From: a virus | Strand: one strand, 5' to 3' | Virus record (IMG/VR): IMGVR_UViG_3300028920_000057 | Location: 1 to 64,000 of that record | DNA length: 64,000 nucleotides | Part shown: piece by piece, positions 1,353 through 63,688 of the stretch | Position numbering within the stretch: position 1 is the first letter of the stretch | Layout of the letters: each line of letters starts with the position of its first letter | Notes under the pieces: generated by a model | Databases searched by the model: none | Seen by the model: only the letters and a program-made list of their open reading frames with translations | Told to the model about the DNA's origin: nothing | Program-made: the position numbers and the translations under genes

Positions 1353-1406
1353 GGGATTTCCTCGGTTGATTCACTGTGTGTAAATTATATCTCTAATACT
1401 CTTTCT

Positions 1407-1448: not shown

Positions 1449-4079
1449 TTAACTAACCACACATCCGGCAACTTTAAATTCTTCTACTTCCCAATATATT
1501 GAATCACTCGTGATAATTCTCCAATATCTATGAGATCCTACATCGGGGGTGTCTGCCATAAATGCCTTTGTATGTCCTCCTGCCTGTTCGCAATAAAAAC
1601 ATTCCGGCACAAGTCCCGACTTAGCCGTACTCCAATCTATTGCATTGTCGCTATATTCTAAATCAATAGACGAGGTACTATTGCTTCCAGTGTCATATTC
1701 CTGAGCAATTGTAACACTCAATACCTTTTGAGCAGAACCAAGGTCTATTCCAATCCATGGATTAGTATCATCTAAGGCTCTCCAGAATGTACTGGTACTT
1801 CCATCTGTAGCATTAATGGGACCATGAGTCCTTGATCCAGAACTCGAAGAACTTGGAAGAGAATATTCGTCGAATCCGGTCCCATTGAAATAATCTTGAC
1901 AAATCCTAAAGGTTTCAGGACTACAATCACTTACATCAAGAGGTATAATCGACGTGTCTCCGCCACAATCTGTCCACGCAGTATCGCAATTATTTCCATA
2001 GATATTAAGCGCCTGTGGCGTCACTCCATCTGCAACAAGCTTGGTTGGACGAGGAGATACGTCGGGATCTGCCCACAAATAATCACAACATCCAATATAG
2101 TTCGGATAATAATAGGCACACGAAGCGAATCCCGCCCATGTTGGCTCATAATATTTCCAATAAATCCCACCAGAAAGATCCATAATAATAAAGGCACAAT
2201 CATCGGTATAATCGCTGACAAATATGGTGCAATAACGCCCCTGATCGGCAGACCAGTCATCCATAGGATCAAAGGCATAACCATATTCATCTTGATTGGT
2301 ATCAGATCCGGTGCTGTCTACTAGATCTGCTAAAACATAACCCTGATAATCTATATAGCTACTTCCTTCCAATTCGGTATCACATAATTTATCTTCGGCA
2401 CAATCGTCTACTTCGCCGCAATCATGTGTCGGCCCGTCTAATGTTGTTGTTTGTCCGGTATCACAATAATCCTCATTAAGGACCAGAGCGTCTATGTCTG
2501 CCTGAGTTTCTACGTCAGAAGCGCTTCCTCCCGGCATTGCATAGACAGACACGCCGGAACCATCTGGCTCAAAGTTTGTAAAGTATAGACAATCATGCTC
2601 CGAATCATACCAATACTTTTGAGTTGGTGGATATTCTTCATATTCAGACCCATTTTGTTCTGGACATGGATATTGATTACTGTTATAGCACTTTTTCCCG
2701 AGATCATCTTCAACCCAGCAGTCTTGATACCATGTACCATAGCCATATACTGTGGGAGGATAATCGTCAGCAAAAGAATCTCCATAAGAATAAGATAGAC
2801 TATAGCAATCTGTATTCTCAAAACGTTCAAGAGAATTATTATCATAATTCGTACTATTGAAATCTGTTACACATTGGGCGCACGCTTCTACAACACTACT
2901 GCTGGATTCTGAAGAACTAGATTCCGATGAACTGGATTCACTAGAGCTGGAAGATTCCGAACTAGAAGATTCAGACGAACTACTCGACTCCGAACTACTC
3001 GATTCTGAGGAGCTACTCGACTCTGAGCTTGATGACTCTGATGAGCTAGATTCAGAACTGCTTGATTCGCTTGAACTAGATTCTGAAGAAGACGACTCTG
3101 AGCTACCACTTGACTCAGAGCTGGATGAAGATTCAGAGCTTAAACTGGATTCTGAACTACTAGACTCTGACGAACTGCTGGATTCAGAACTAGAGCTTGA
3201 TTCACTGGAGCTGGACGATTCAGAGCTTGAGCTGGACTCCGAGCTAGATGATTCACTGGAGCTGGACGACTCAGAGCTTGAGCTGGACTCTGAGCTACTT
3301 GATTCACTGGAGCTGGATGACTCAGAGCTTGAGCTGGACTCTGAGCTACTTGATTCACTGGAGCTGGATGACTCAGAGCTTGAGCTGGACTCCGAGCTAG
3401 ATGATTCACTGGAGCTGGACGACTCAGAGCTTGAGCTGGACTCTGAGCTACTTGATTCACTGGAGCTGGACGACTCAGAGCTTGAGCTGGACTCTGAGCT
3501 ACTTGATTCACTGGAGCTGGACGATTCAGAGCTTGAGCTGGACTCCGAGCTAGATGATTCAGAAGATTCCGATTCACTACTTTCACTTGATTCTGAAGTT
3601 TCAGAAGTAGACAACGAACCAGAACCAGGCGCTGCACCAGACGAAGTTGGCTGATGCGCAGAAGAAGAGCAGGGCTCACATTCTGGACATGGCCATGGTT
3701 CTTGGAACGGACCTCTTTGTCCATCTTCTCCGGCTGGCCCCTGATTTCCGTCAGGCCCAGCAGGTGCCACATAAGTTTCTGGTTGAGGAGGACCCCAAAA
3801 AAGCACGGCAGAAATCACTCCATCGTTTCTCGTATCCTCAAATAAATCTATGATCTGATCGGGGGTGATGTTGTGCTTCTGGATATAATCTTCTACGGGA
3901 CTGAAGTTCGCTTTTGGAACATAATCCCACTTCTTAACTTTGATCAAAACCGGATTGGGAGGAGTCTCATAGAGAGGCGTATTCCAAACATGTCTCCCCT
4001 GTAATAGCTCTTTCAGCTCATCGATCTTAGCCTGTAAATCTAGGCAATTACATTCTTCAGAACTACTGGAACTTGTCAT
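1449..4079 (-). CDS. Ser/Glu-rich fibre protein with C-terminal discoidin-like domain
   Basis: An 876-aa mosaic protein. Residues about 1-105 are homologous to the neighbouring 132-aa protein (shared YIxKHNIT and DGV...WGP motifs). A short collagen-like stretch (GPDGNQGPAGEDGQRGP) and a CPECEPC cluster follow. Residues about 146-396 are an almost pure Ser/Glu tract (SSSSE and SSSSSE units). Residues about 400-740 form a Cys-, Tyr- and Asp-rich region resembling secreted adhesins. The last 130 residues look like an F5/8-type-C (discoidin) domain (STSTFWRAL, IGIDLG, HRYWRII), a fold that often binds carbohydrate. The Ser/Glu tract is probably an extended, possibly glycosylated stalk. It is co-transcribed with the upstream paralogue, overlapping it by 4 nt. 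A role as adhesin or receptor-binding fibre is inferred. Confidence 0.85.
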   Translation of the reverse strand: MTSSSSSEECNCLDLQAKIDELKELLQGRHVWNTPLYETPPNPVLIKVKKWDYVPKANFSPVEDYIQKHNITPDQIIDLFEDTRNDGVISAVLFWGPPQPETYVAPAGPDGNQGPAGEDGQRGPFQEPWPCPECEPCSSSAHQPTSSGAAPGSGSLSTSETSESSESSESESSESSSSESSSSSESSSSSESSSSESSSSSESSSSSESSSSESSSSSESSSSSESSSSESSSSSESSSSSESSSSESSSSSESSSSSESSSSESSSSSESSSSSESSSSESSSSSESSSSSESSSSSESSSSSESSSSESSLSSESSSSSESSGSSESSSSESSSSESSSSESSSSESSSSESSSSSESSSSESSSSSESSSSESSSSSESSSSESSSSESSSSVVEACAQCVTDFNSTNYDNNSLERFENTDCYSLSYSYGDSFADDYPPTVYGYGTWYQDCWVEDDLGKKCYNSNQYPCPEQNGSEYEEYPPTQKYWYDSEHDCLYFTNFEPDGSGVSVYAMPGGSASDVETQADIDALVLNEDYCDTGQTTTLDGPTHDCGEVDDCAEDKLCDTELEGSSYIDYQGYVLADLVDSTGSDTNQDEYGYAFDPMDDWSADQGRYCTIFVSDYTDDCAFIIMDLSGGIYWKYYEPTWAGFASCAYYYPNYIGCCDYLWADPDVSPRPTKLVADGVTPQALNIYGNNCDTAWTDCGGDTSIIPLDVSDCSPETFRICQDYFNGTGFDEYSLPSSSSSGSRTHGPINATDGSTSTFWRALDDTNPWIGIDLGSAQKVLSVTIAQEYDTGSNSTSSIDLEYSDNAIDWSTAKSGLVPECFYCEQAGGHTKAFMADTPDVGSHRYWRIITSDSIYWEVEEFKVAGCVVS
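3199..3555 (-). repeat. 51-bp tandem repeat (7 copies) encoding Ser/Glu units
   Basis: Seven contiguous near-identical 51-bp units begin at 3199, 3250, 3301, 3352, 3403, 3454 and 3505. Each encodes 17 residues with three Glu in a Ser background. Units 1, 4 and 7 carry one variant end (tccgagctagat on the plus strand), and units 2, 3, 5 and 6 carry another (tctgagctactt), giving a 153-bp higher-order period. More degenerate Ser/Glu coding extends on both sides (about 2890-3640). Confidence 0.9.
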
Positions 4080-17784: not shown

Positions 17785-20244
17785 CTATGAAGAAGATGAA
17801 GATGAATTCGAACTCGAGCTAGAACTAGAGCTTGAAGAACTTGCTTCAAATGGTTCCTCGAATTTCTGATATATCTTTGTGCCTATTGCCACATGCTTTC
17901 CTATGACGTCAGAGATTTCACGTTCAGTAAATTGTTCTCTAACCTCATCTTCCATGGCTACTTCAACAAATACATGGGGAATATTTTTCCCATCATTATA
18001 CCCTATATCGTTGAAACCTACAACGTTTGGATTCTCCTTATAAGCCTCATCAAAATTCTTGTTCTCAATAACTCCTCCGCCTCGCTTTCTGACATCGGTA
18101 ATTTCAATATCAGACGCTGGAATACCCTCTGTGATATAATACGTACCAACAAGCATATAGATCTTATTGTCGTATCCAATCAACTCATCCGTTTCATCAA
18201 AGATCATAACTTCGCCCGTTGGACTTAAATAAATACTGATGGATGATCCGAGATAACTTTTCAAATCAAGATTGGCAACAATATGATTCTTTTGAACATA
18301 ATGATATTTAATATATTTGTCGGCATCAAATTTAATCTTACGACTGAAGATCAAAATCCCATTCTCAGTATCAAAATCTATTAAACTACTCGTGATATCC
18401 TCTGTCAATTTGTTCCCGACTTTCATCGTGAAGACAGGCTCCTCTGTAGTAGGATTGATATAAAGAGGTTTTCTACTTAGTCTAAACATATTTTCTGCAA
18501 TTTGAATGGGCGTTTCCCCATGTTCTTTGATGGGATATGCGTTTGCCTCATTTAAATAATACGTTTGAGTCGAAGCATAAGGGATACCATCAAGAAGCAG
18601 ATAGGACGCCTGGATATCTGTGACTGGTTCATAAACACCAGTCTCAACCACTTTAACTTGAGATATGCTTAATGGTCGGCTCATAAATCCAGGCTTTATA
18701 ACCGCTCTCCATTCTCCGTTAACATCTTCGAATGCCGGCTCTAGTCCTATAAGATGATCGTCCACATATTTAATATAGAGCGCCGCCGTCCTGAACGTAA
18801 CTCGCCTGTCACAATTATTCGGGACAACAGGAGTCTCGATAGTTAAAGAAGCCTCGGGAAACCCCTCGTCTGCGGCAGTCGCAGTTAGATATTCTGTATA
18901 AAGCCCTCCTTGCGGCATTGTTACCGACGTGATTACTCGTCCTTGATAATGCGTACTGATATTAATAGTGGCAACCAACTCGCCCGTTGTTTTCTTGCCA
19001 GTTGGTCCATATATAATTTCCGTACCCCCTATCTGAACCTTAGATACTGTTGGGAAAGTTACAACAGCCGGCCCGGTAAAAGCCTCGTGATTATCAAATA
19101 GATAAAGGAAATATCTATTAAGTTGAGTAACAGAATCTATATCGGTGAATAGAACTGGATAATCATCTGAATCCAATACACTCAACACCGTATTCAATAC
19201 AGATGTCAAGGCCTGGTCATATGTATATCCCTGATAAATAATCATATCGCTTGGCAATAAAGATATTCTGCTATAACGACAAAGACGAATGTTTGAAGCG
19301 TAGCCTTCTCCGGTATAAGATATATTATAGACCCCATATTCGTCCGACGGTCTCATCTCTACCCAAAATGTTTGTAGAGTTAATTCCTTATCAATAGTTC
19401 CGCTGGAAGAGTTTAAGCTCGATGAAGACTGCATGATATCTGCTTCTGCCACAGTGGTCAAAGGAAATTCTACCCATCCTGCAGTTTCTGGAATATCGGA
19501 GTGTTCTACGCTTGAAATTGCAAGCCTCTTATGCACTGCCCCATTATAATCTTGGTGAATGATTATATCAAATGTTCCACCAACATTACTGGCTTTACCC
19601 ATGTGAATATAAATCTTATCAAACATTCTTATCTCGTCTGTCTGCACCTTCATCAGATAAGTATAACCGTTTGTAATTTGTAACGATTCTCCGTTGGCTA
19701 CCAGAGGGCTTGATTCAATATTGTCAATCATCGGAATTGTAGATAACCCGCTATCAACATAAGTATATTGAGCAAGGTCATCAATCTGCTGATCAAAGTC
19801 CAGAATATATGGAATCATTTGAACTTCATCTGCGAAGTATTCGTCTGCCCATACAGACAGTCTGGGTCCATCATAATAGATGTCTAGAATAGGCATGCCA
19901 TAGTTTGTACGAGGAGATTCTGGGCGCCGACTTGCGTTCAACGCATTATTCAGCACAATAGCCTGTATGGGTGTTGTAAAATCTTCGATTGATACCGCGA
20001 TAGTTGTGTCTGGCTGACCGGTAAAAGATACCTCGTAGTATTCCATTGTTGGCAATTGAATATCTGTATCTGTAAAAGAATTACCCACCATTGTCATTGG
20101 AGTTCCATCAGACCTCACAACAGACGCTATGGTTCCATCGTCTGGATTTTGCAGCGTGGCTTCAATATCGTAAACGCCCGCCTGTAGAGACCCCGCTCTA
20201 ACATCGGTTACTTCTATATTGAATTGTGGATATACTGCTGTCAT
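17785..20244 (-). CDS. Beta-rich tail protein with poly-Ser C-terminus
   Basis: An 819-aa protein of unrecognised family, largely beta-strand with many Tyr, Thr and Asp residues. Two Ser-rich loops lie near the middle (SSSSLNSSSG, coded about 19390-19435). The chain ends in a run of about 19 residues that is all Ser except one Asn (coded 17788-17845). The terminal run alternates AGT, TCT, TCA, AGC and TCG codons, so it is kept at protein level rather than by slippage of one codon. It belongs to the fibre and baseplate periphery block by position. Confidence 0.75.
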   Translation of the reverse strand: MTAVYPQFNIEVTDVRAGSLQAGVYDIEATLQNPDDGTIASVVRSDGTPMTMVGNSFTDTDIQLPTMEYYEVSFTGQPDTTIAVSIEDFTTPIQAIVLNNALNASRRPESPRTNYGMPILDIYYDGPRLSVWADEYFADEVQMIPYILDFDQQIDDLAQYTYVDSGLSTIPMIDNIESSPLVANGESLQITNGYTYLMKVQTDEIRMFDKIYIHMGKASNVGGTFDIIIHQDYNGAVHKRLAISSVEHSDIPETAGWVEFPLTTVAEADIMQSSSSLNSSSGTIDKELTLQTFWVEMRPSDEYGVYNISYTGEGYASNIRLCRYSRISLLPSDMIIYQGYTYDQALTSVLNTVLSVLDSDDYPVLFTDIDSVTQLNRYFLYLFDNHEAFTGPAVVTFPTVSKVQIGGTEIIYGPTGKKTTGELVATINISTHYQGRVITSVTMPQGGLYTEYLTATAADEGFPEASLTIETPVVPNNCDRRVTFRTAALYIKYVDDHLIGLEPAFEDVNGEWRAVIKPGFMSRPLSISQVKVVETGVYEPVTDIQASYLLLDGIPYASTQTYYLNEANAYPIKEHGETPIQIAENMFRLSRKPLYINPTTEEPVFTMKVGNKLTEDITSSLIDFDTENGILIFSRKIKFDADKYIKYHYVQKNHIVANLDLKSYLGSSISIYLSPTGEVMIFDETDELIGYDNKIYMLVGTYYITEGIPASDIEITDVRKRGGGVIENKNFDEAYKENPNVVGFNDIGYNDGKNIPHVFVEVAMEDEVREQFTEREISDVIGKHVAIGTKIYQKFEEPFEASSSSSSSSSSSNSSSSSS

Positions 20245-20247
20245 GCT

Positions 20248-22224
20248 CTACACCTGATAAAATACATTGCCCTGATCCCAGTATCTTCTTTCTAGGACAG
20301 ATGTTGTGTTAATCAATTTCTTATAGGATGAATTTCCGCTACGATATACGATAAACCTTCCGTCTTCTTCCTGAGATCCTTTTTCAAGATATACCGTAAT
20401 ATTATAATATCCACCACTAATGTTATACTCATAAGAGATATTGAACTTTAATTCCAGAGTTTGTCCGTTTAAGTCTGTAAATGATATACGACTTAAAATT
20501 GTGTCATGGATTACTTTCTCCATAGCGGCAAGTGTAATCTTTTGTTCGATAGTTCTCGACGATTCTACGGTGCCTAAAATTGTGGCATAATCTGTTTCGT
20601 TTACAGGAGATATCATCTCTATTTCTTCCAGCTCTATCTTATAGAACATAGGAATAGGAGCGCCGAATATTGGATCGCTGGCTATGTTGGTTGCTACGCT
20701 TGTATTTGATTCAAGCTGAGTATAACCAATACCCAGAGCCACACCAGGATTTAATACGCTACTGGAAGAAGCCGTCTCTGTTTCTCCTATGATTAGATTT
20801 GATAATAGATTAAAGGAATAATGATATAAGAAAGGATCTCGTGGCAACTTCTTATTATTCAAACCATACGCCATACTCACGTTTTCGAGATACGCTGGTA
20901 CTTCACCATCAAAATGACATAGTGGTACGCCGTATCTGAACAACCTGTCTCTGACTTCAAACGCAAAGATTGTCTCACTTTCCGCTCCAGATGAAGTTGA
21001 TATAGATTCCGGCTCTTCAACGGCCGAACTGCTTGAGCTTGCCTCTTCAACAATAGAGCTCGAGCTAGATTCTTCTTCTGAAGATTCGGACGAAAGAGAG
21101 GACTCAGAAGATTCAGAACTTGATTCCGATGATTCAGAACTTGATTCAGAAGACTCACTGGATTCTGACGATTCGGAGCTTGACTCTGAAGACTCTGAGC
21201 TTGACTCTGATGATTCACTAGACTCCGAAGACTCCGATAAGATACTAGAACTTGAAGAAGATTCTTCGAGACCATATTGGTCGGCGCCGATATCCCACGA
21301 TCCCTCGCCTGTCCTATCTCCGTTATCTATGTCTTCTGGATATCCGAGGGCAGTCAAATCAGTACCAGCCCCAATGGCATCTGCTCCTGATTTTAAGTGC
21401 AGGTCTTCAGCTCCTCTCGTGTTACTGACATATTGGTTTGCAGAAGTTTTGTTAGTTAAACTGCCAGATCCAGGAGCGGAAGCGTCCGAACTCAGGTTCG
21501 TTGCATAATCAGCATTTGTATATACCGAATCAAAATCTTGAGAATCATTCTTACCAGCCGTGTCGGTTATGATGTTATTTTTTATGATGTCATTGGAATC
21601 GTTATTGGTATTTTCAATACCATACGAGGTATAAACGACATTACCTCTTATGTCGTGTACGGTGTTGTTTATAAAAATTAGCTTTTCAATAGTATTATTT
21701 GTAATAAACCCTTTAGATCTTTCTATAAGCGACTCAAAATCAAAGATGAAGTTATTAGCAAAAATAACAGTTCCTTTTCGCGCTCTCCACCCAAGGCCGA
21801 TGCCAGAAGCACGAGTGCCATCATAGATCAAACAATTAAGAACCTCAACGGTTGTTGAGGAGGTTTGTCCGTCATTACCATTTTCACCGCCAAAGTCGCG
21901 CATTTCCAGCCATTCAAATTTGGTATTTACTTCAGTGGCAATATAGTGATTATTGGCGCTATCAAAAATGGCCCCGGTACCAGCTGTTCCATCGTGTCGG
22001 CTGGACTCATCGACGGTAAGAGTAATAGAACCCAAAGGGATTCCTTCTCCAGCCGCGCCTGCGACTACCGCCCTGTCGTAAGCAGACCCCAAGTCATACA
22101 CAACACCTACAGCGTCATCTCCGCTGTTATAAATGACACCGCTATCCAGGTCGGACTCCCACGCAGCGACCGTTGTATAATCGCCTGAGCCGTCTGATTT
22201 AATTGTTTTTGTTACAGTAGCCAT
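20248..22224 (-). CDS. Beta-helix-like tail spike/fibre protein with Ser/Glu linker
   Basis: A 658-aa two-part protein. Residues about 1-320 resemble a right-handed parallel beta-helix (pectate-lyase-like): they contain repeated N-rich turns such as FANNFIF, FITNNTIEKLIFINNTVHD and IIKNNIIT, and end in GSWDIGADQYG. This pattern is common in surface and spike proteins that bind or cleave polysaccharide. Residues about 320-408 are a Ser/Glu linker (ESSESSESS units). Residues about 410-658 form a separate beta-rich domain, perhaps the virion-attachment part. No catalytic residues can be assigned. The modular order is opposite to a classical spike, where the attachment domain is N-terminal. Confidence 0.75.
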   Translation of the reverse strand: MATVTKTIKSDGSGDYTTVAAWESDLDSGVIYNSGDDAVGVVYDLGSAYDRAVVAGAAGEGIPLGSITLTVDESSRHDGTAGTGAIFDSANNHYIATEVNTKFEWLEMRDFGGENGNDGQTSSTTVEVLNCLIYDGTRASGIGLGWRARKGTVIFANNFIFDFESLIERSKGFITNNTIEKLIFINNTVHDIRGNVVYTSYGIENTNNDSNDIIKNNIITDTAGKNDSQDFDSVYTNADYATNLSSDASAPGSGSLTNKTSANQYVSNTRGAEDLHLKSGADAIGAGTDLTALGYPEDIDNGDRTGEGSWDIGADQYGLEESSSSSSILSESSESSESSESSSESSESSSESSESSESSESSSESSESSSESSESSLSSESSEEESSSSSIVEEASSSSSAVEEPESISTSSGAESETIFAFEVRDRLFRYGVPLCHFDGEVPAYLENVSMAYGLNNKKLPRDPFLYHYSFNLLSNLIIGETETASSSSVLNPGVALGIGYTQLESNTSVATNIASDPIFGAPIPMFYKIELEEIEMISPVNETDYATILGTVESSRTIEQKITLAAMEKVIHDTILSRISFTDLNGQTLELKFNISYEYNISGGYYNITVYLEKGSQEEDGRFIVYRSGNSSYKKLINTTSVLERRYWDQGNVFYQV

Positions 22225-24053: not shown

Positions 24054-27000
24054 AGATCAAATATGTACCTTCTGTTCCGCTTACTCTGTGCGGATTCTGG
24101 AATCTATTTATATGACTATACAGTCCGCTGGTTTGAGCCAGGGGCTGACTTCCGTTCCACTCACGGATAGAGCGGTATGTATTACCAAGTTCGGGAGCGA
24201 CATAATCTTCTATATCGATTGTATCGGCATCTGCCGTAGCTGGGATTTGTCGATATACATAGAACGGAATAATAACTCCCTCATAATTAACATTGAATAA
24301 ATGACGATATTGCAGCGTCCCGCTTTGGTAATCGCTTATTATCTGCTCAATAGCAGCTTGCGAAAACTGAGCAGTACCGGCGGAATATGTCATTTCGTAT
24401 GGGCCAACACTACCATTATAAATATGGGCCAGGCCGATGTCTCCATCGAACATATCTAAGGCCTGTCCTATCGTAAGCAATCTATTGCCCGTAGCCCCGA
24501 TAAAGTCTGTCAAATTAACCTCGACATAACCAGATATTAAACCTTCCCTATCTCCCAAGACAATATAATATGGATTGTCAACATTGTTGTCTTCCATAAT
24601 GTCTCTGAAGGAATTATCGCTATTATACTTTAGAACTACATCTGCCTGATATTGAATCTTATACATAAAGGCAGGCAGTAAACAAATCGGCATTAGTTCT
24701 GCATCACCTTCGTCTAGATAGAACAATACAATATCTATTGTTTTAATAAGAACGCCCTGATCTTCTGCGGCCTCATCAAAGAAATCAGAAGGAATGTCTT
24801 CTGGATCAAAAGTAATATCGCCCTGTAGCCGTTTATCTGTCGAAGTCCATCTATATCGATTAGAGCCATTAGCTCCTGAATATGTAACACCTTCCGTCGT
24901 CCTGTCTTGTTCGTCCCAAAAGCTCAGGTCGTCAGATAATGCAGACGTGACGTCTCTATACTTGCCCTTATAATGAGTATATAATTTGAATACTATTTTA
25001 TTATCAAAATCAAGATCCAATCCAGTCTTGAAATTAAGTGCTTCAAGTCCGAAATCAAAACTTACTGTGTTAGTAATGTTTGAGTCTCCGTAAATATAAG
25101 GAGTAGGAACAGGCTGATCGTAAGTGACCGTTACGTTATAATTAGGAATAGCCTCAATCGTATGTAGTCTCTGGTAGAATGAGCCGGTTGTGATCTTATT
25201 ATCTGCGATAGTAAAATATGGTTGTTTTGTCTCGTCAGTATATTCCTCCACGGTAGGAGTAAGTGCAAGCTCCGTGTTTTTAACAGTTGGGATGATGTTG
25301 TACTTAACGGCGAGCTTTCCTGTAGATGCGAGATTGCTGTAAGATTGTCCCAACGTAGGTGCTTCTCGAGTAATTTTCACGCTCTGAGGATTAACCTTAA
25401 TCATCGGACCTATCAATCTAACTGTCCAGAACTCGCTATTATATGCATCAATAAGCGTATTTATATTGCCTGCGGCTTTTGGAATAATATCGTAGTATGC
25501 ATTTTTAATGACCCCATGTGGACTATCGAGCGTAATTGGCGATAGATCTGGATCTGGATCTGCGAAGTTGTTTTCTAGAGTGCTGGTTTCAGGGCCGGCA
25601 CTTGAAGAAGATCCTTCATTAACATTCAAAATGTCAGAAATGGATACGAGCGAACTTTCAGACAATTCGACTTCTTCCGCAATCCGTTCTTCAAATCCCG
25701 CAAAAGCGCGTTCCATATTGGTTTCAATTTCTCCAAGAGCTTCTTCCATTCTTTGAACGATATCAAAGTATCCAGTATTTCCATATCTGACAATAGTCTC
25801 TGTTTGTTGGAGGCGTTTATCTTCTTCATATTGCAGGGCTCTATTAACGGTATCTATCATTAAAGCTGTGCCGTTATACAGGTCGCCGGCAAAAGTATAT
25901 GGAGCATTCAACTTGATGGTATCAGCGTCTTCATCAAAAGTCTCTGGAGTATAATCTGTGTCAATTATAATGGCCGTCGCACTAACGGCAGTAATAGTGT
26001 GTTTGCCGTCGTAAGAATCTGTATTCTCAATTGTAACGATATCATCCACTCTAAAGGAATGTTGTACCGTATTCTCAAGCTTAATTTCCAAACGGGTCAA
26101 ACCATCTCCGGCACTTTGAGCAGATCCCGTTAGATAGCCATCTATCCTGCGTATTATAGACTCGGGAATCGTTACGTCACGATGTCCAAAATAGTCTGCA
26201 TAATAATCCAGCTGTTCATCCAGCCTGATCCAGCTATCTGTAAAGTATCGATCATATCCGCCAAATTCAGCAAGATCAAGCATAGTGGCATTCTTAAACA
26301 GATTGATCTGACGATATGTCGGGAATCCTTCAAGCTGCGAAATAGCATAAACACATCCCGAACTACTTGAAGATGAAGATCCTTCTTCTGAATCTGTGGG
26401 GCATGTAAATTCCCTGATTACTTCGTCGATATAAATCTTATAATAATAATTGCCAAAGACATTCAGTCCAGGACAGAACTCGTATGGCCCCGCTGAACTC
26501 GAAGGAATCTCGCAGCTTGACGACAAGGCGCTACTTGAAGAAGACAGAGATGATGAGGAAACCTCTTCTGCAGAAGAAGATGAGGCCGCTCTATTGTCGA
26601 TACCACAGACATCCAAGGTGATATCTTCAAAAGCGGTGCGGAATATCGTGTACTTCTTGGGGTTGCTATATAGCCAGGCTGTTGCGTCCAACAAAGTTAA
26701 CATTGCATCTGTGCCGAATGTTTCGCTCACAAACGTACGTCTAAGTATAATCATATTTGCACTTGGTGCGTCTGATACGACGTATGTGCCATTGTAATTA
26801 TCTGTCCCGCGAATAGTAACAGATGAGCCTAAAGTAATTCTGTGATCAGGTATATAGAGGCCGAATTTTGTAGAATCTCCGACACTTATTGCGTGTCCGC
26901 CGCTAAGAGAAAACTCTAATTGAGGAAGAGGATATATCGTATAAAAGGATTGCCCGCTCCTATTGTCGTAGCCGCTTCCTCCTCCGCCAAAGATTGTATT

Positions 27001-27943: not shown

Positions 27944-28684
27944 TTAAGCGCCAGAAGAATCGGAAGAAGAATCAGAAGACGATGAAGATTCTTCTTCAGA
28001 ACTACTGGACTCTGATGATGATGAAGACGATTCGCCGGAAATCGGCGCTGTCGCATCTAAGCCCCTTGGATCTGGCTGATAAACAACATTTCTATCCGTA
28101 AGCTGCGAAGCTGTAACTTTATGTGGATTGTTATAGTCCGCTATATGTTCGTCCAAAGTTTGCTGCGATACCTGGAGTCTGTTTAAGATATCGCTTTTTG
28201 CTGCCGCAGTAGTATTGGCTGCATTATCTATTTGGGTTTCAAGCCTGTCGGTATTTGTTTCCAGCTTGTTCGTAAGTGTTTCAAACTTGGTTTGAACCGT
28301 AGTGAGCAAACTTGAAAGAGTCGTATTGATAGTCTGAATAGACGTAAGCTCGTCTTTGGTGGTCTCAATAAACTGTTCGATTGCTGTATCTAATTTGGCG
28401 TCGATATAGCTTTTCAATTCCCCGATAGACTCCTCTCTGGCAGTGGAAAGGGCCTGGGTATATTCCTGTACGACTTCGTTCATCTTCTCCCGAAGCTGAA
28501 CAAATCTGCGAGCTACTGCAAGTTCAACTTCCTTTGCCGCATCCTCGACCTCATATTTAAATGCGTCGATGGATTCTGCCAGGACCTGCATATTTTTATT
28601 GATAGCATGCCCCCAGTTGTTGTCTCCTGGATTGAAATAAACTATCTGTTGGCCTGTTAAGCCAGGTAAACTTGTTATTGACAT
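27944..28684 (-). CDS. Coiled-coil tail fibre-type protein with NPHxV motif and Ser-rich tail
   Basis: A 246-aa protein. Residues about 35-190 are a long heptad-like helix (VQTKFETLTNKLETNTDRLE), followed by the fibre motif HIADYNNPHKVTASQL, and ending in a Ser/Glu/Asp tail (about residues 219-244). The helix suggests a trimeric rod. The NPHxVT motif is widespread in phage tail fibre and collar proteins. It lies directly downstream of the 1072-aa baseplate protein, the usual position for a fibre or fibre-attachment protein. Confidence 0.8.
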   Translation of the reverse strand: MSITSLPGLTGQQIVYFNPGDNNWGHAINKNMQVLAESIDAFKYEVEDAAKEVELAVARRFVQLREKMNEVVQEYTQALSTAREESIGELKSYIDAKLDTAIEQFIETTKDELTSIQTINTTLSSLLTTVQTKFETLTNKLETNTDRLETQIDNAANTTAAAKSDILNRLQVSQQTLDEHIADYNNPHKVTASQLTDRNVVYQPDPRGLDATAPISGESSSSSSESSSSEEESSSSSDSSSDSSGA

Positions 28685-28697
28685 TTATAGACTCCTA

Positions 28698-31600
28698 TTA
28701 ATTACCAAAGTCTTCATCCCACTGATATCCCCATCCATCTTTATCTCCATCATAATAATTATCATTACTCGTATATGCCGGAGCAGATGGCGCGCTGAAT
28801 ACAGTAAAATCGGTTTCTATCTTAATGGGCGGATTATAATTAATGCCTTGGCTCGATGTTTCGTCTGGGTCATAGATTATTCTATGTCTACCCTTGCCTT
28901 GACCGTTATAAAGAGCGAAGTCTGTATCGACTATTAAAGCTTCGCTGAATTCTCCGGTTAATTTGATATAGAAAAATCCCCGCTTATAGCGAATATCATA
29001 ATCGATCTCGGTATATTCGCTCGTCAGATCTGTTTCGTATTCAATATATAGTTCTGCCGTATAGACATCGTCGCTTAGCAGTGTAAGCTTATCGTTTTCA
29101 TCTATAGAGAACTGAACCTCTTGAAGTTCAACGCTATGATCTGTCATAATAATAGGAGCTTGAGGATTATGCTCTTGAGATAGAAAATAATGCTCGTCCG
29201 GCAAAACTGTAACGTAGTGATTTTCATCTACAATTGTTCCATCTATATCTACGATCTTCAAAGATAGATTATATATAGACGCAGAGCTCGACAGAGAAGA
29301 AGATGAGCTGGTAGGAGATTGTTCTTTGATGTAGAGTTCTTGATCGGCTCTGCAATATACTATATTGTTAATATCTCTCAGCTCTCTACCATCAAGCGCT
29401 TCCGATAAAGAATCTGGATCAAGCTTATAGTAAACAAGATCGGTTAACAGCTCTCGTCTTTTATCTATGTATAGATAGAACTGCATCTCTCCGATATAGA
29501 AGAATCCCGGCTTGACCTGTGGATTATAATTGTCTGCGACACCAACAACCTCTAAGTCTTTAAAGATCTCGAAGTCCTCCAATGTTGCATTGACGCCACT
29601 CTGTATATCAGTAAGCTTTGTCCCATTTACATGATATGTTTCCGATTCTTCCGCGTCAACCCTCCCAAGCAATTGGCCGTTTGCATCAAGAAGCCAAGAG
29701 AAAAATCCGTCGTTATATGCCCTTAGAGTTCCTCCTCCGACCAGGTTTTGGGATATCATGTCCCATCTATCTCGGCCTGCAATTTGTCTGTCCCAGGTAT
29801 CGTGAATCAAATTGCGAAGCTCTATAGCTCTATTGTGAGTTCTGTTCAGTTCTTGTGCCGTAATACTTAAGTCTTGAAAAGCCGCAAACGCATCTTCATC
29901 AAAAGTATCTATCCTTACAGGAAGATAATCCATTGAAATATTAACCGTATCGCCATCCACGTCTCTCAGATTGATTGCCCTCAAAGTATCCATCGTCGTC
30001 AAGCCTATTTCACTATCTATCGTGAAGCCTTCGGCCTGTAATTGACGAACCAGATCTCCTATTGATAAACTCGTTAAATCAATCTCGTATTCATAATATC
30101 GATACTGCACTTCTACGCTTGTCGTTTTAGCTGGATCAGCATAATGATTAAACTGCAAGATAGTAGAGAATTCGTCGTGAGAATATAATGCAGCAGGATA
30201 TATTTTGTCGTCAACCTTTACGCTTATGATATTACGGATAGGATATGATAATGTAACATAAGCATAATTTGTGTCAGGCTGAACTGTCTCGGTTATTACG
30301 GCATCTGGCTGAGAAATATAAAGCATTTCCTTGCGTTTTATCAGAGCCATATTATCTCTGATAGATATGATGCTGGAGATTATTTCTCTGCCGAGCCTTA
30401 GAGTAATGGCATTCAAGATGTCTCGATTGTTACAGCCCGTAGCATAATTTGTACTATAATCGATCATCCTGTTTTTATATCTGTAATTTGATTCTCCTTC
30501 AAGACGAGGAAAATCCCGTATCAAACCATGTTCATCAAGCAGATTAAAATACGGAGCATAAGCAATATCATAGCTAGACAATCCTGTAAGCGTTGCATAT
30601 TCTTCTCTAAAGACAATATCGTTTGTGTCGTCGTCTATAAAATAATAGTCATATTTTAATTCGATCTCCCGCGTAACAACGACGTCCGTAGTTGAAGAAA
30701 CAAAGATCTTGTATGGATCTTCAAAAGTCCCGATAAGAGATATGGTGCCGGTTTCCAGGAAGTCAGAGTTAGACAAAGCAACACGTTTTGTAACCGTCAG
30801 GATGTTATCTTCTTCTTCCGGGGCGTCAGGCGTAATCCATAATAGACTATATGTATATTCTGAAGCCCCACTTGAGCTCGACGAGGAAGACGAGGATGAC
30901 GCTTCCTCACCATCTCGAACAAGAGCTACTATGTTTTCATCTTGTAAATATATGTCGATTATTTCTGATGTCGCTTCATCCAGAACACCATTTGGCATTA
31001 ATTCTTCAAGAGTATATCTGTATACAACCGAGCCATCAATAGTTTTAATAATCTGTCCATTATCAACAGAGAACTCTTGAGGATATAGAGTACCAAAGAA
31101 TTCTACTTTGAAATCAAAGAACGATTTACCAGTTGTAAACGGTTCGTCAATCGCCGCTTCTGTATCGGAAATACGAGCATACGTCGCAGGAGTTCTGCGA
31201 TACATGTCGTTTATACTATTCGTATAGTAAACTCTTCTACCATCGCCCATCAAATAATAAGGATCTGTTTCATTGGTAAGTAACCAATATGGAGTTTCGT
31301 CTGCCTTTCTTGACCATCCGTGATGCTCATAGTCGAGCCATAAGGCGATCTTTGCTCCGGCCGGATCTCCCTCTATAGTTATTTGTGTCAACTCTCTGGC
31401 GTCGGAATCCTTTAAATCAATCACAGAGCTAAAATCCGAGACCTCATAGCTATAATCGGCTCCAGTAGTAATGTTGGCGCCCTCGAGTGTAATTTTGCTT
31501 ATAGAGCCTCCTGAGACGCTTAGATAGAATGGTCGATTCCTTGCTATTTGTACGGATAGATATTGGGTGTATCCATCCGCCGTTTCTATCCAGTTAAGAT

Positions 31601-56762: not shown

Positions 56763-58608
56763 ATGATTTACTTAAATCAAGTTCAACTAGAACCTTGACG
56801 ATTTCGAAAGCAGGTACGATGACTGCTTTTACGCTGACTTGGCCAAGCACGGCCTGATCCTCGGTTTGTTCAAGCGAGAATTCATACCGATTAATAAAGC
56901 CATTGCCATCATCAACCAACTGTCTAAACATGTCGTCCAGATCGGCTCGCATACCATTGAGGCGGGCAGAATTGCCAGCTTCGCCAATATACGGATCGGC
57001 AACGCGCCGTATCAAATCCATAACCTTGGCCGTAATACGGACGGTGGTTAGGTTTGTATAGTCGCTCCGACGATACTGATCGATATTGTAGGCGGACGTA
57101 ATCCCTCTTGCCACAACGTATCCCCGACCAGGCTTTCTGATGGTGATAACGTAGCGTGCTGCAACAAGGTCGTCTGCGTCTGAACGCTTAATGTCTCTGA
57201 TTGACTGGAAGCCATCAATAGACTTATTGGTTGTAGAGCTGTTTTCAGGCAGCCTTAGAACCAGCGCCAGGTACTCACCCACGCCATTAGACACGTACGT
57301 GCGTTCACTCGGAGCCCCAATCAGGCGCAACGTCTGATCGCCATATGTGTTGCTGGAAACACCTTCCATGGCGCCAAGGCTAACCCATCGACCGAGGTCG
57401 ACTTTGTTGCCATGAGCATCCACGATGTCGCCAGTAGAACCTCCGGGATTTGCACTTGCACCCCCGGTGGCCTTCCACATACGATAAGTCGTAGGAACCA
57501 GATCGGATTCGCCAGCCGTATGGCCATCGAGTCCAGAGCTATTAGTGAAGTCCTTCGCATCGTCAATAAAATCGTTCCATTCGGCAAGAGTAATGCCGAA
57601 GGAATCCGTAGTTGAGGGATTATAACCTCTGAACGCTCGCCGGAAAGCGGTTTGCATCAGTCCTCTAACGGTATTGAATTCTGTTTCAGTACCATCAAAG
57701 ACTTCTACAGCGCCCAAAAGCTCAGTTCCCTCTATAGGCGTTTCTGTCACAGTTATGATGGCGGCATCGTCATCATAGCTTGCGACATAATAATCTCTAC
57801 TACCTGTGGAGTAATAGACGGTTATTTTAGCGCCTACATATGGAATACCCTCGCCCTCGAAATCTCCCGAAGATGAAGATGAGTTCGCAAGCAACGTAGA
57901 ATCAATTACGATCTGCTTGGTAGCAGCGTCAATAGAATCAATGTTGACCTGAGCAATGCTAAGCTTATTAAAATAAGACGTAGCAAATGCGTCACGGAAT
58001 TGCTTGAATCTGATAGGAAGTCGGCCAATGGCTGAAATGACAGCGTCATTTTCCAGGCTGGCATCTTCACAGAAGTTAGCAAGCTGATATGCGAAATCAC
58101 CCGAATCACCATCGTAGGTGCGAGTGGTATTATCTGAATCGTATACCTGAGTCAGGTCTGCCCGAAGATCAGCATAAACACCTGGGATATAAACAATATC
58201 CAAGGTATGATTAAGCAGATTCTCAAACGTTTCCTGAAGAGCAGTGTATCTTTCAGTTTCGGTCACAATGTGACCGTTGAAATTGGAGTTGCCGCAGTAA
58301 AGAAAACCTTCCTCACCCCAACCATGAGCGATCTTGACAAACTCTACCGTAACACCCTTTGAGACCTCCGCAATAGCTTTTGTAAGCTCGCTCGGCTTAG
58401 TGCCGAAGTCGTCGTTGATCGCAGGGTGAAACGTGGAATATCTGTCAGCGCTCGAATCCGTTAGGAGCACTGGGTCATTAAGGGGTATGTCTGCAGTCGT
58501 TACGCCCAATACCGTAATTTTGGTACCGGGAGCAGGACGTTCAACACGAAGATTCCCGTCATTCAGCGACACCACAGTTCCTGGTAAATTAGGGAATTGT
58601 GAAGTCAT
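56761..58608 (-). CDS. Tail sheath protein
   Basis: A 615-aa protein. The N-terminus (LPGTVVSLNDGNLRVERPAPG) and the C-terminal domain (GRGYVVARGITSAYN, TTVRITAKVMDLIRRVADPYIGE, NARLNGMRADLDDMFRQLVD, FSLEQTEDQAVLGQVSVKAV) are typical of contractile sheath proteins, whose terminal arms interlock between subunits. The length fits the family with an extra inserted domain. A poly-Ser loop (SSSSSGDFEGEG, about residue 243) lies in the middle, presumably in an outward-facing inserted domain. AAGGAG precedes the ATG. It is followed directly by the tube gene. Confidence 0.93.
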   Translation of the reverse strand: MTSQFPNLPGTVVSLNDGNLRVERPAPGTKITVLGVTTADIPLNDPVLLTDSSADRYSTFHPAINDDFGTKPSELTKAIAEVSKGVTVEFVKIAHGWGEEGFLYCGNSNFNGHIVTETERYTALQETFENLLNHTLDIVYIPGVYADLRADLTQVYDSDNTTRTYDGDSGDFAYQLANFCEDASLENDAVISAIGRLPIRFKQFRDAFATSYFNKLSIAQVNIDSIDAATKQIVIDSTLLANSSSSSGDFEGEGIPYVGAKITVYYSTGSRDYYVASYDDDAAIITVTETPIEGTELLGAVEVFDGTETEFNTVRGLMQTAFRRAFRGYNPSTTDSFGITLAEWNDFIDDAKDFTNSSGLDGHTAGESDLVPTTYRMWKATGGASANPGGSTGDIVDAHGNKVDLGRWVSLGAMEGVSSNTYGDQTLRLIGAPSERTYVSNGVGEYLALVLRLPENSSTTNKSIDGFQSIRDIKRSDADDLVAARYVITIRKPGRGYVVARGITSAYNIDQYRRSDYTNLTTVRITAKVMDLIRRVADPYIGEAGNSARLNGMRADLDDMFRQLVDDGNGFINRYEFSLEQTEDQAVLGQVSVKAVIVPAFEIVKVLVELDLSKS

Positions 58609-59928: not shown

Positions 59929-61955
59929 TAGCTAAAATATTCCGTATATTGTGGTAATTGATAATATCGGCTGGCTCCCTTAATTGTCGGGAACTGCCAT
60001 CCCTGTTTTGTTGATAGATATGTATAGGTACGAGTCCTGAAATTGGGCTTTGTCGTTCTGTGCATACTTCCTTTGATTGCAACCACAAATTGTACCCCTG
60101 TACCGCATAGTACCTTAAGTGCCCGTCGTGCACTTGCGACTTCATCGACAATGCCGTCTTCTTTAGGATTGCGCTTAGTGTTCGAGGCCCTGGCTCCTAC
60201 TCTGACGTTATAATCTCCAAGTCGTTTCGAAACCCCTCTCGAGACCGCCGTATCAATATAGGTCAAATCATAGAAATCAAGCAAGGTTTTCTTATATGCA
60301 TATGTGATAGCATCTTCCGGCGGTTCACATAGGTCATATGACATACAGGCTAATTTCCAGGCTTCTATAGAATTCTTCAGAATCATCCTGAGAATCTTCT
60401 CGTCAGAATGTTTATAATTCAGCCCTTCAAGTTCAAGGCGGATAAGATCAATATCAGAATAGATAGGGAACAAACCGGTCATAAACCATTTATGAAGTTC
60501 ATTATCCGTAGTCCAGACCATAACGGCGCCATTATCGTCCGCCTGTGACCTCAAGCCAGATTTGATGTAGATGTTAACATCTGTATTCAACGTAGGACCT
60601 TCATATGTGACAGTAATGCTCGACGAACTCGACACTTCTGGTTCTGAAGATTCACTATCGCTCGAACTTGAAGACTCAGGAGTAGGAGTCTCTCCGTCTT
60701 CTGCGGAGGAAGAAGTATCTTCAGTAGACGAAGTAGATATAGACGACGTTGACTCAGAGCTGGAGGAAGATTCTTCTTCAGCCTCTTCTTCTCTTGGATC
60801 TGTGTTGGAAATATAATATCCCCATGCCGTGCCTTGAACCTCTTGTGTGTCATCGCACCCAGCGATAATGGTTACAGAAAAGTTCTGGTTTGGCGTAATG
60901 GCTATTTCTTCGACTACATAATTGTCATTCGTACTAATACAACCACTATCAAATAAGGTTTGGCCAAGTTGATGAACGATAAATTGATCTTTCACCTTGA
61001 ACGAACGATACTTCAAATAGGCAGTTTCAGAAGCTCCAAAGTTGTATTCTCTTGTTTCTTCTCCTACAACGCCTTCTCTGTAGATGTTGTATTCAGTAAC
61101 TGTCGTAGTTTCGGTAGGGCCAGAAGGTAAAGAGGATGAAGATGAAGACGAACTGGATGCCTCTTCATATTGCTGGGCCTCCCAGTCTGCGAGCGTCCCC
61201 GGATAAGTAATAAGGACGTCATTCCCTTGAATATAATAATTAACATCAGGAAATAACTTGTCGTTTCTATTATCCAGACAAAATGCCGACGTTCCTTCTG
61301 CTGCATAAGAATCTTCAAAGTCTTCTACATCATAGACCATTGCCCTGATATCTACCATAGGCTTATGCTCTAATATGATATATTCTCTGGCAGAAGCCAG
61401 ATCTACTGGACGATTGAAGGTTAATCGAATACCATTCTCGGCTATAAACGCAGGAGAAACAAGCATCTCGCCATGCGCAGGTTCCATATCTACAAATTCT
61501 AAAGGAATCGTCTCTACTGCGATAGGTTGGTCGTCAATGACAACATAGACAGTCTCTGTCTCTTGAGGCGCATTTTCTCTAGGACTTGACGCAACAACCG
61601 CAGAAGGAGCCCTGACACCAGTAGTAAATAAAATAGTTTGTGTTTGTAGAACGGAATTGCCGTCTGTGTCTTTAACCTCTCCTACAAACTGGCTGAGATC
61701 TTTACCTGAAATAATGATCTTATAACCTGTTTGTTCATTGAGAGATAATGCAGGAAGAACCTTTACCACGTTGCCAGAAGTAACATAGCTTGCACGAACT
61801 GGTGTAGAAGTATCACGATTCAATAGCGCTATAGTGCCGCTATTAACAGAGGCTGAATCAATATCCTTATTAAAAGTTAGCGTAATAGTGTTTTCTATCT
61901 GAAAGTTGTTGTCTCCACTCGTAGGGGAACTTCTAACAAGAATAGGAGTTGACAT
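59928..61955 (-). CDS. Ig-domain neck/head protein with poly-Ser linkers
   Basis: A 675-aa protein. Residues about 1-115 form an SbsA-type Ig-like (Big_5) domain (SSPTSGDNNFQIENTITLTF, NKDIDSASVNSGTIALLN). A second, more diverged copy lies near 148-235 (MEPAHGEMLVSP, LTFNRPVDLASA). Poly-Ser linkers at about 265-275 and about 392-448 separate an outer beta domain and a C-terminal domain (about 455-675) with helices (DLIRLELEGL, EKILRMILKNSIEAWKLACM, VASARRALKVLCG). The helical part may be the head-tail connector or adaptor and the Ig domains a surface decoration. This division is inference from position just after the capsid gene. Confidence 0.7.
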   Translation of the reverse strand: MSTPILVRSSPTSGDNNFQIENTITLTFNKDIDSASVNSGTIALLNRDTSTPVRASYVTSGNVVKVLPALSLNEQTGYKIIISGKDLSQFVGEVKDTDGNSVLQTQTILFTTGVRAPSAVVASSPRENAPQETETVYVVIDDQPIAVETIPLEFVDMEPAHGEMLVSPAFIAENGIRLTFNRPVDLASAREYIILEHKPMVDIRAMVYDVEDFEDSYAAEGTSAFCLDNRNDKLFPDVNYYIQGNDVLITYPGTLADWEAQQYEEASSSSSSSSSLPSGPTETTTVTEYNIYREGVVGEETREYNFGASETAYLKYRSFKVKDQFIVHQLGQTLFDSGCISTNDNYVVEEIAITPNQNFSVTIIAGCDDTQEVQGTAWGYYISNTDPREEEAEEESSSSSESTSSISTSSTEDTSSSAEDGETPTPESSSSSDSESSEPEVSSSSSITVTYEGPTLNTDVNIYIKSGLRSQADDNGAVMVWTTDNELHKWFMTGLFPIYSDIDLIRLELEGLNYKHSDEKILRMILKNSIEAWKLACMSYDLCEPPEDAITYAYKKTLLDFYDLTYIDTAVSRGVSKRLGDYNVRVGARASNTKRNPKEDGIVDEVASARRALKVLCGTGVQFVVAIKGSMHRTTKPNFRTRTYTYLSTKQGWQFPTIKGASRYYQLPQYTEYFS

Positions 61956-62293: not shown

Positions 62294-63688
62294 TTAGGTA
62301 GCGCTGGAACTGGAGCTGTCTTCAATTCCCGCAGAAATTGTCGGCAGTTCACCGTTTGAGATGTCCCAGGTAACCTTATCTTCCATGAAGTAGGCTTGGT
62401 CGATTGCGATGTTCTTAAGAACACGCGCAGCTTTACCCTGGTTAACGTTAATCATGGAGTACCGTTCCCGGAACTTCATTTTATAAACGTCAACCCGAGG
62501 ATCGTTCCAGTCTTCAGTGTAGAGGTCTTCGTCGACGACGAGCAAACCTGCCTGATCGGCCTGAAGCAGAACGATGTCGGTGACCCACTTGCTCAGAGTG
62601 GTGTTCCAGGTTACAGGAGCATAAGGCGTAACAACAATGTTGAAGCCTAAGCCACCATAGCCAGGTACCTGGAATGCGAACGTTGCATTGGCGGCTCCGC
62701 CAACTGAAGTACCGGAAGTGGCACCCAGTGCGACAGATTGACCAACGTTCTGTCCGTAAGGTACGTTAACACCAAGCTGAGGAGCATAGACGGATCCACC
62801 CGTAGGAGGAGTCCAGAATGCGCCACCTTGACCACGGAAGAACTGTTCCCGAAGGATCGGATCTTTCGCGAAGATTGTCCATGCAAGCGGATGACAGACA
62901 AGCGTGTTGAGGTGCCAGCCTTCTTGCAGGGCGTCAATGTAAGCGTCAACCAGATCGTCAACGATAAGGGTCCAGTTACCATTACCATTGATATCACGAC
63001 CTTTGGACCGGCGAGCGCCGGAGGCAATGTTGTCGATATAGGTAGAACCCAGGTTGAAGATAAGGTCGGAAGCTTTCTTTTCTTTATGACGAATCAGAGC
63101 CTGACGCGCCTGACGGGCATGCAGGTTAACGACGTCAAATGCGGAATAACGGATAGCTTCTTCAGTGAAGTTTACCGCGATACCGACTTTCCCGATCGTG
63201 GCGGTTACTGAACCGCTGTAATCGAGAGCCAGTTCGGGGTATTCTTCGCCTTCTGCCATATCGAGCTCGAGGTTACCGGCTGCGCCTACGGCGGGGAAGG
63301 TGATTGAAGTACCGTTTTGGAATCTTACTTGCGTAAGCATCCGAGTAAGCGGGTTGTCCTGCGGAAGAGGTTCCCGAACCACGTTGGCGACAACGTGAGG
63401 AATCAGGTTCCGGTATTCAGCAGATGTGACAGCATCGCTCGTTTTGCTGGCTAATTCGACTGATTTGTCAATCAGATCTGGAAGCTCAACATGCTTGTCA
63501 AGCTCACGGTGGTAACCGTTATCTTTCCAGATTTGAGTCCACAGAGCAAGGCGGTCCCGAACTTCCTGTTTTTCAGTCTTCGGTTTAGCTTTGTCGTCTG
63601 CTTTTTCGATCTGGCCTTTGACAACAGCGTGCAGTTCTTCCATAACCTTATCAACTACAGCCATAGCATCTTTTTTTACATTATCCAT
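62294..63688 (-). CDS. Major capsid protein, HK97 fold
   Basis: A 464-aa protein. The N-terminal about 95 residues are helical and charged and could be a scaffold-like or delta domain. The E-loop and spine region follows (MLTQVRFQNGTSITFPAVG, residues 117-135; IGKVGIAVNFTEEAIRYSAF). The P-domain contains VDDLVDAYIDALQEG and LVCHPLAWTIFAKDP. The C-terminal part contains TDIVLLQADQAGLLVVDEDL. This is the layout of HK97-type major capsid proteins. The chain ends in EDSSSSSAT, a short poly-Ser tail. A GGAGGT ribosome site lies 6 nt before the ATG (63695-63700), and a strong terminator follows the gene. No protease is visible here, and a mature cleavage site cannot be placed. Confidence 0.93.
   Translation of the reverse strand: MDNVKKDAMAVVDKVMEELHAVVKGQIEKADDKAKPKTEKQEVRDRLALWTQIWKDNGYHRELDKHVELPDLIDKSVELASKTSDAVTSAEYRNLIPHVVANVVREPLPQDNPLTRMLTQVRFQNGTSITFPAVGAAGNLELDMAEGEEYPELALDYSGSVTATIGKVGIAVNFTEEAIRYSAFDVVNLHARQARQALIRHKEKKASDLIFNLGSTYIDNIASGARRSKGRDINGNGNWTLIVDDLVDAYIDALQEGWHLNTLVCHPLAWTIFAKDPILREQFFRGQGGAFWTPPTGGSVYAPQLGVNVPYGQNVGQSVALGATSGTSVGGAANATFAFQVPGYGGLGFNIVVTPYAPVTWNTTLSKWVTDIVLLQADQAGLLVVDEDLYTEDWNDPRVDVYKMKFRERYSMINVNQGKAARVLKNIAIDQAYFMEDKVTWDISNGELPTISAGIEDSSSSSAT

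Follow-up and report, generated by a model that had tools for sequence, protein, structure and literature searches.

Polyserine runs with mixed codons in the structural proteins of a contractile-tailed phage

The structural module and its serine runs

The window analysed here corresponds to bases 1 to 64,000 of the 88,896-base IMG/VR virus record IMGVR_UViG_3300028920_000057, the remainder of the record being referred to as L002, and its source is a contractile-tailed phage. The long ORFs of the window make up a single leftward structural module that includes the major capsid protein, the sheath, tail proteins, a baseplate-J-like protein (matching phrog_6 of PHROGs, E = 1e-34), and a series of large proteins with no assigned function. 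The capsid protein shares 26–29% identity with its counterparts in Moorella phage MTATph1, Acinetobacter phage ME3, and Bacillus phage KLEB27-3 (four of 50,697 records matched, ME3 twice), and the sheath matches those of MTATph1 and KLEB27-3; the annotation of ME3 cites Bacillus phage 0305phi8-36. No tRNA was found either in the window or in the rest of the record. The proteins and Ser-rich regions considered below are the following:

1449..4079, minus strand: 876-aa protein, with a short collagen-like stretch (by eye), a Ser/Glu array, and a C-terminal F5/8 type C (discoidin-like) domain
2895..3608, minus strand: Ser/Glu array of the 876-aa protein, residues 158–395
3196..3561, minus strand: 51-bp DNA tandem repeat inside the array, 17 codons per unit
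17785..20244, minus strand: ORF of the 819-aa protein of the structural module
17788..17841, minus strand: C-terminal tract of the 819-aa protein as read from the sequence, residues 802–819 (11 Ser, Asn, 6 Ser)
21101..21261, minus strand: 658-aa protein, region of Ser/Glu tandem repeats together with the first pure Ser run
26359..26379, minus strand: 1294-aa protein, 7-Ser run (the protein has seven runs of at least four Ser)
27974..28030, minus strand: C-terminal Ser/Glu region of the 246-aa protein, with three runs
30870..30899, minus strand: 10-Ser run of the 1072-aa protein
57868..57882, minus strand: 5-Ser run of the tail sheath protein, residues 243–247
60591..61178, minus strand: insert of about 196 aa in the 675-aa protein, with all four of its Ser runs
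61131..61157, minus strand: 9-Ser run opening the 675-aa insert, residues 267–275
60618..60770, minus strand: Ser/Glu linker closing the 675-aa insert, residues 396–446, with three 5-Ser runs
62303..62317, minus strand: major capsid protein, residues 458–462, a 5-Ser tail past the conserved end

Ser runs of at least four residues were found in 11 of the 31 genes of the window, and runs of at least five in nine of them. Outside the 876-aa gene, 27 runs of at least four and 17 of at least five residues (the latter in eight genes) were counted, compared with 1.06 and 0.12, respectively, expected when each protein was shuffled. Glu accounted for 25 of the 68 residues just upstream of runs of at least five Ser, against 4.6 expected. 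Runs of this length were confined to the structural module, as no ORF in the rest of the record had one, and only two ORFs there had a run of four, one of them antisense-looking. The Pfam domains scoring above the curated cut-off in the tract carriers scanned were limited to F5/8 type C and Big_5, neither of which is catalytic. An incomplete gene at positions 1–1370 (minus strand) adds two SSSS runs; it presents long collagen-like Gly-X-Y stretches with repeated GSSGA motifs and looks like a tail fibre.

Codon order within the runs

The C-terminal tract of the 819-aa protein had been described in the earlier note as a 19-residue Ser run with alternating AGY and TCN codons. The protein does end in a Ser tract that mixes AGT, TCT, TCA, AGC, and TCG, its length being 18 residues; the figure of 19 is reached only if Ala-801 is counted, and an Asn interrupts the run. 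Alternation holds for the 11-Ser part (AGT TCT TCA AGC TCT AGT TCT AGC TCG AGT TCG), with nine AGY/TCN switches among ten neighbours (4.4 expected, P = 0.006), and not for the final six Ser codons, all of them TCN, so that both parts together give 9 switches of 15 (6.6 expected, P = 0.18). The other two runs of at least nine Ser in the window, outside the 876-aa gene, showed three of nine and two of eight switches. As neither the remaining tract nor these two long runs alternate, the post hoc P value of the 11-Ser run was set aside. At the DNA level, repeats in the 819-aa tract were limited to 2.2 copies of a 12-bp unit and 2.5 copies of a 6-bp unit.

In order to judge codon order across the runs, neighbour pairs in Ser runs of at least four residues were compared with draws from the Ser codons outside runs, on 41 genes, of which 31 lie in the window and 10 in L002. 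With the 876-aa gene included, 154 switches were counted against 115.2 ± 8.8 expected. Without it, 28 runs with 121 pairs showed 50 switches against 52.9 ± 5.9 expected (P ≥ 0.72), and Ser codon usage did not differ between tracts and elsewhere (chi-square P = 0.18). When the incomplete first gene was added and only window genes were considered, again without the 876-aa gene, the result was 50 switches in 124 pairs from 29 runs (53.4 ± 6.0 expected) and 21 identical neighbours (26.1 ± 4.8 expected). Shuffling within tracts, one of the three null models used, gave a weak excess of switches in some settings: 69 against 58.7 for runs of at least three without the 876-aa gene (P = 0.005), and 50 against 43.9 when the 658-aa gene, which bears a tandem repeat, was also removed (P = 0.049).

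The claim that AGY and TCN codons alternate was one that, by its own terms, would fall if codon order could not be told from random draws at genomic Ser codon frequencies. Outside the 876-aa gene, it could not be told from them, and alternation beyond chance in the window is rejected; the Ser runs and their mixed codons are real, and alternation beyond chance has no support there. The accompanying statement that single-codon slippage does not account for the runs agrees with our counts, since identical neighbours were not in excess (20 of 121 pairs against 25.0 ± 4.7 expected, without the 876-aa gene). The window runs do not consist of a repeated identical codon, as a trinucleotide microsatellite (homocodon run) does.

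The array of the 876-aa protein, which had been said to mix AGY and TCN codons in the same way and does so, has a different organization. Within it lies a DNA-level tandem array with a multi-codon unit, i.e., a coding minisatellite: 7.2 copies of the 51-bp unit with 94% match, and a higher period of 153 bp at 97%. As the units carry a copied codon order, the switch excess obtained with this gene is largely the replication of one unit. The array outside the repeat showed 42 switches in 72 pairs against 31.5 expected at the genome AGY fraction, a comparison that carries no P value, and some excess of switches may persist there; identical neighbours in the same part were 12 against 11.4 expected. 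Comparison of the seven full units showed variation at 5 of the 17 codon columns, in 11 cells, all of it synonymous, including AGT/TCT, with no nonsynonymous difference. The absence of amino acid changes supports selection at the level of the residues and, together with the excess of runs of at least five Ser over shuffled proteins, the view that poly-Ser is held at the protein level. The further proposal, that codon mixing is selected to keep the DNA stable, found no such backing, as codon order cannot be told from random draws outside the 876-aa gene and the 876-aa array expanded although its codons are mixed; thus, mixing did not prevent repeat expansion there. The C-terminal F5/8 type C domain of this protein (E = 7e-14) might bind sugars as a tip carried on a long Ser/Glu stalk. 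On the opposite strand, a 265-aa ORF rich in Leu, Asp, Glu, and Ser (positions 2857–3654, plus strand) is merely the complement of the Ser/Glu array and was rejected as evidence of a gene.

Relatives, models, and polyserine linkers

The presence of Ser runs was followed in 83 loci, comprising 80 viral loci with a shared capsid protein and the three named phage stretches, and 14 of them had a run of at least five. None of the 36 sheath homologues had a Ser run longer than three residues, and none of the 14 homologues of the 675-aa protein had one longer than four. The insert of about 196 aa in the latter was absent from all 12 aligned relatives (two incomplete homologues were omitted from the alignment), and the 5-Ser tail of the capsid protein was missing from the four relatives aligned. 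MTATph1, KLEB27-3, and ME3, all large phages, share capsid similarity with the phage described here (MTATph1 and KLEB27-3 also sheath similarity), but lack Ser runs of at least five in the stretches examined (L004–L006). In one related contig (L001:1530), a portal-like protein, recognized by eye, has six consecutive Ser within a stretch rich in Ser, Ala, and Lys. No relatives of the 819-aa protein were found by tblastn in phage records, by a degenerate-pattern search in viral contigs, or in PHROGs; the 1072-aa protein had no match in phage records, and the search with the baseplate-J-like protein found no related viral contig. Therefore, the conservation of the tracts of these proteins was not traceable in these searches.

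In the AlphaFold model of the 675-aa protein (mean pLDDT 61.5), the Ser runs fall in segments with pLDDT below 50, with strands between them and a partly folded middle. The Foldseek matches of this model, with query-normalised TM-scores of 0.10–0.16 among the 50 matches listed, gave nothing useful outside the Ig-like N-terminal domain. In the sheath model (mean pLDDT 68.6), the Ser run lies inside segment 236–261, also with pLDDT below 50. These low values suggest that the runs may be flexible or disordered, low pLDDT being a proxy of disorder and not a proof of it.

The Ser runs are probably polyserine linkers, serving as flexible linkers or tails of virion proteins, in which the amino acid is selected and the codon mix is a by-product. 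As such, they would be short, disordered, and hydrophilic spacers or tails, often placed after Glu, which separate or extend folded modules of virion proteins; this spacer function is one that we infer. Selection would act on the amino acid, the codons of each run would drift to the usual Ser mix of the genome, and AGY/TCN mixing in the short runs would follow without being selected itself. The linker of the 876-aa protein would have grown by duplication of the 51-bp multi-codon unit followed by synonymous drift. Against the linker reading, the 819-aa tract is a C-terminal tail and not an inter-domain linker, no relative of its protein was found in the searches above, and both structure models are of low to middling confidence.

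Polyserine linkers are a known kind of element, encountered here in virion proteins. In bacterial carbohydrases of Saccharophagus and Cellvibrio, they separate modules and are probably flexible spacers, and more than a quarter of over 180 depolymerases of Saccharophagus carry them (PMC2386152, which cites Howard et al. 2004). The runs of the phage resemble them in being runs of Ser residues; a placement between folded modules would fit the 675-aa protein and, weakly, the sheath, but neither the C-terminal run of the 819-aa protein nor the capsid tail. They differ in that those of the virion proteins mostly have 4–11 Ser, often beside Glu, some of them as C-terminal tails, whereas lengths of 25–58 residues are given for the bacterial ones (PMC2386152), and in that the bacterial linkers belong to secreted carbohydrate-active enzymes, whereas the carriers here include sheath and capsid proteins. 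The 876-aa array recalls the staphylococcal SD repeats, both being Ser-rich and acidic and encoded by multi-codon DNA repeats in which TCN and AGY codons are mixed, although the unit of the array is of 51 bp (17 codons), codes for Ser/Glu, and lies in a phage protein, and the SD unit is of 18 bp, codes for Ser-Asp, and belongs to a bacterial surface adhesin. Likewise, the fungal homopeptides of low codon purity, which are set apart from homocodons, consist of a single repeated residue encoded by different codons (PMC8113271), though that survey covers fungi and the present runs are Ser runs of a phage. A survey of low-complexity regions in phage proteomes reports Ala, Gly, and Pro as the most enriched residues (PMC6821194). 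Our literature search, in which few subscription journals were covered, found no paper on polyserine linkers of phage virions.

Longer runs in other phages and alternative explanations

Codon order in longer Ser runs was analysed with two codon-ordered seeds, which recovered 120 and 110 viral loci. Because the seeds fix the class of the codon and not its third base, codons were only exchanged with others of their class in the same gene, and the shuffle was applied to distinct runs of at least nine Ser with at least one AGY codon. In the first set, identical neighbours numbered 384 against 586 expected (44 genes, 35 below expectation and 7 above), and 125 against 153 without the 10 largest genes. 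The depletion was strongest at distance 1, with smaller deviations at others (e.g., z of −3.3 at distance 4 and of 4.4 at distance 5). The second set, a replicate whose test was fixed before its output, except for the clustering by shared 9-codon strings, which was added afterwards, gave 370 against 453 expected (62 genes, 44 below and 18 above), with the other distances within a z of 2. In runs of two to three Ser from the same loci, identical neighbours were near expectation (463 against 467 and 377 against 396). The pooled counts (1951 switches against 1594; 355 identical neighbours against 830) were discarded, since the seed is codon-ordered and a few giant arrays dominate. Genes without the seed showed 340 switches against 304 (16 of 28 genes above expectation, Wilcoxon P = 0.07), and an all-TCN seed recovered almost no long mixed Ser runs. 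In unselected loci, i.e., the window and the major-capsid relatives, identical TCN-TCN neighbours were 5 against 7.5 expected in the few runs of 9–14 Ser, and 8 against 6.0 expected in runs of 6–8 Ser. Giant Ser-rich proteins, maybe open-ended ORFs, were observed in phage contigs at L190:7739-13030 (minus strand, 1764 aa), L181:951-5057 (minus strand, 1369 aa), and L166:3866-10534 (plus strand, 2223 aa), with dozens of long Ser runs, some of them between other sequence; Pfam gave no family for them, and identical neighbouring Ser codons were scarce in that of L190 (42 against 148 expected).

This depletion at distance 1 in runs of at least nine Ser is what would be expected if slippage of pure trinucleotide repeats led to selection for codon mixing, or to its maintenance as unstable alleles are lost. 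As an explanation of the runs in the window, we find this unlikely: identical neighbours are not depleted there (20 against 22.0 ± 3.8 outside the 876-aa gene, in the class-preserving shuffle) nor in the 876-aa gene outside its repeat, the 876-aa tract cited in favour of the idea is itself an expanded tandem repeat, and the staphylococcal SD repeats, despite their mixture of TCN and AGY codons, are reported to be very unstable in high-copy-number plasmids (PMC3324548). Moreover, the codon pairs of the other loci (L086–L205 and L444 upward) resemble a general codon-context preference, as TCT-TCT is barely depleted (observed/expected of 0.92), in contrast to TCC-TCC (0.31) and TCG-TCG (0.44), and non-identical pairs are skewed too (TCC-TCT 0.51, TCT-TCG 2.01, TCG-TCA 1.65). 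Therefore, a nearest-neighbour codon preference is at least part of the depletion, and codon-context bias may explain it. For phage Ser runs of at least nine residues, selection at the DNA level or mutational purging of identical adjacent codons is conceivable, if rather doubtful, with the runs of the window being too short to show it; the stability idea has no more than partial support, from runs outside the window that are much longer.

Two other explanations concern the origin and the role of the runs. Copies of one DNA linker cassette, recombined among genes, would agree with the Glu-rich contexts that recur upstream of the runs and with the finding that runs of different genes share, on average, slightly more DNA than redrawn codons do (7.75 against 7.15 ± 0.19), but the longest shared DNA, 16 nt, lies within the 11–17 of the redraws; this comparison mostly refutes copying between genes, unless divergence erased the homology, and makes the cassette very improbable. 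It also seems quite improbable that the runs are sites of modification (glycosylation or phosphorylation) of the virion proteins: their context is Ser/Glu-rich, and a gene of the NAD-dependent epimerase family lies further along the record (L002:14585-15574, minus strand), but no glycosyltransferase or kinase was shown, and the epimerase-like gene may serve another role. Beside the latter, a short ORF within L002:14585-15906 (minus strand) resembles, by eye, the end of a nucleotide-sugar dehydrogenase.

In conclusion, the reading of the runs as polyserine linkers separates two claims, namely, the retention of Ser runs as features of the protein, which has support, and the tuning of their codon order for DNA stability, which is unsupported here. 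It points to a testable bias of neighbouring codons in very long Ser runs, and to phage virions in which many of the structural proteins would be equipped with polyserine linkers.
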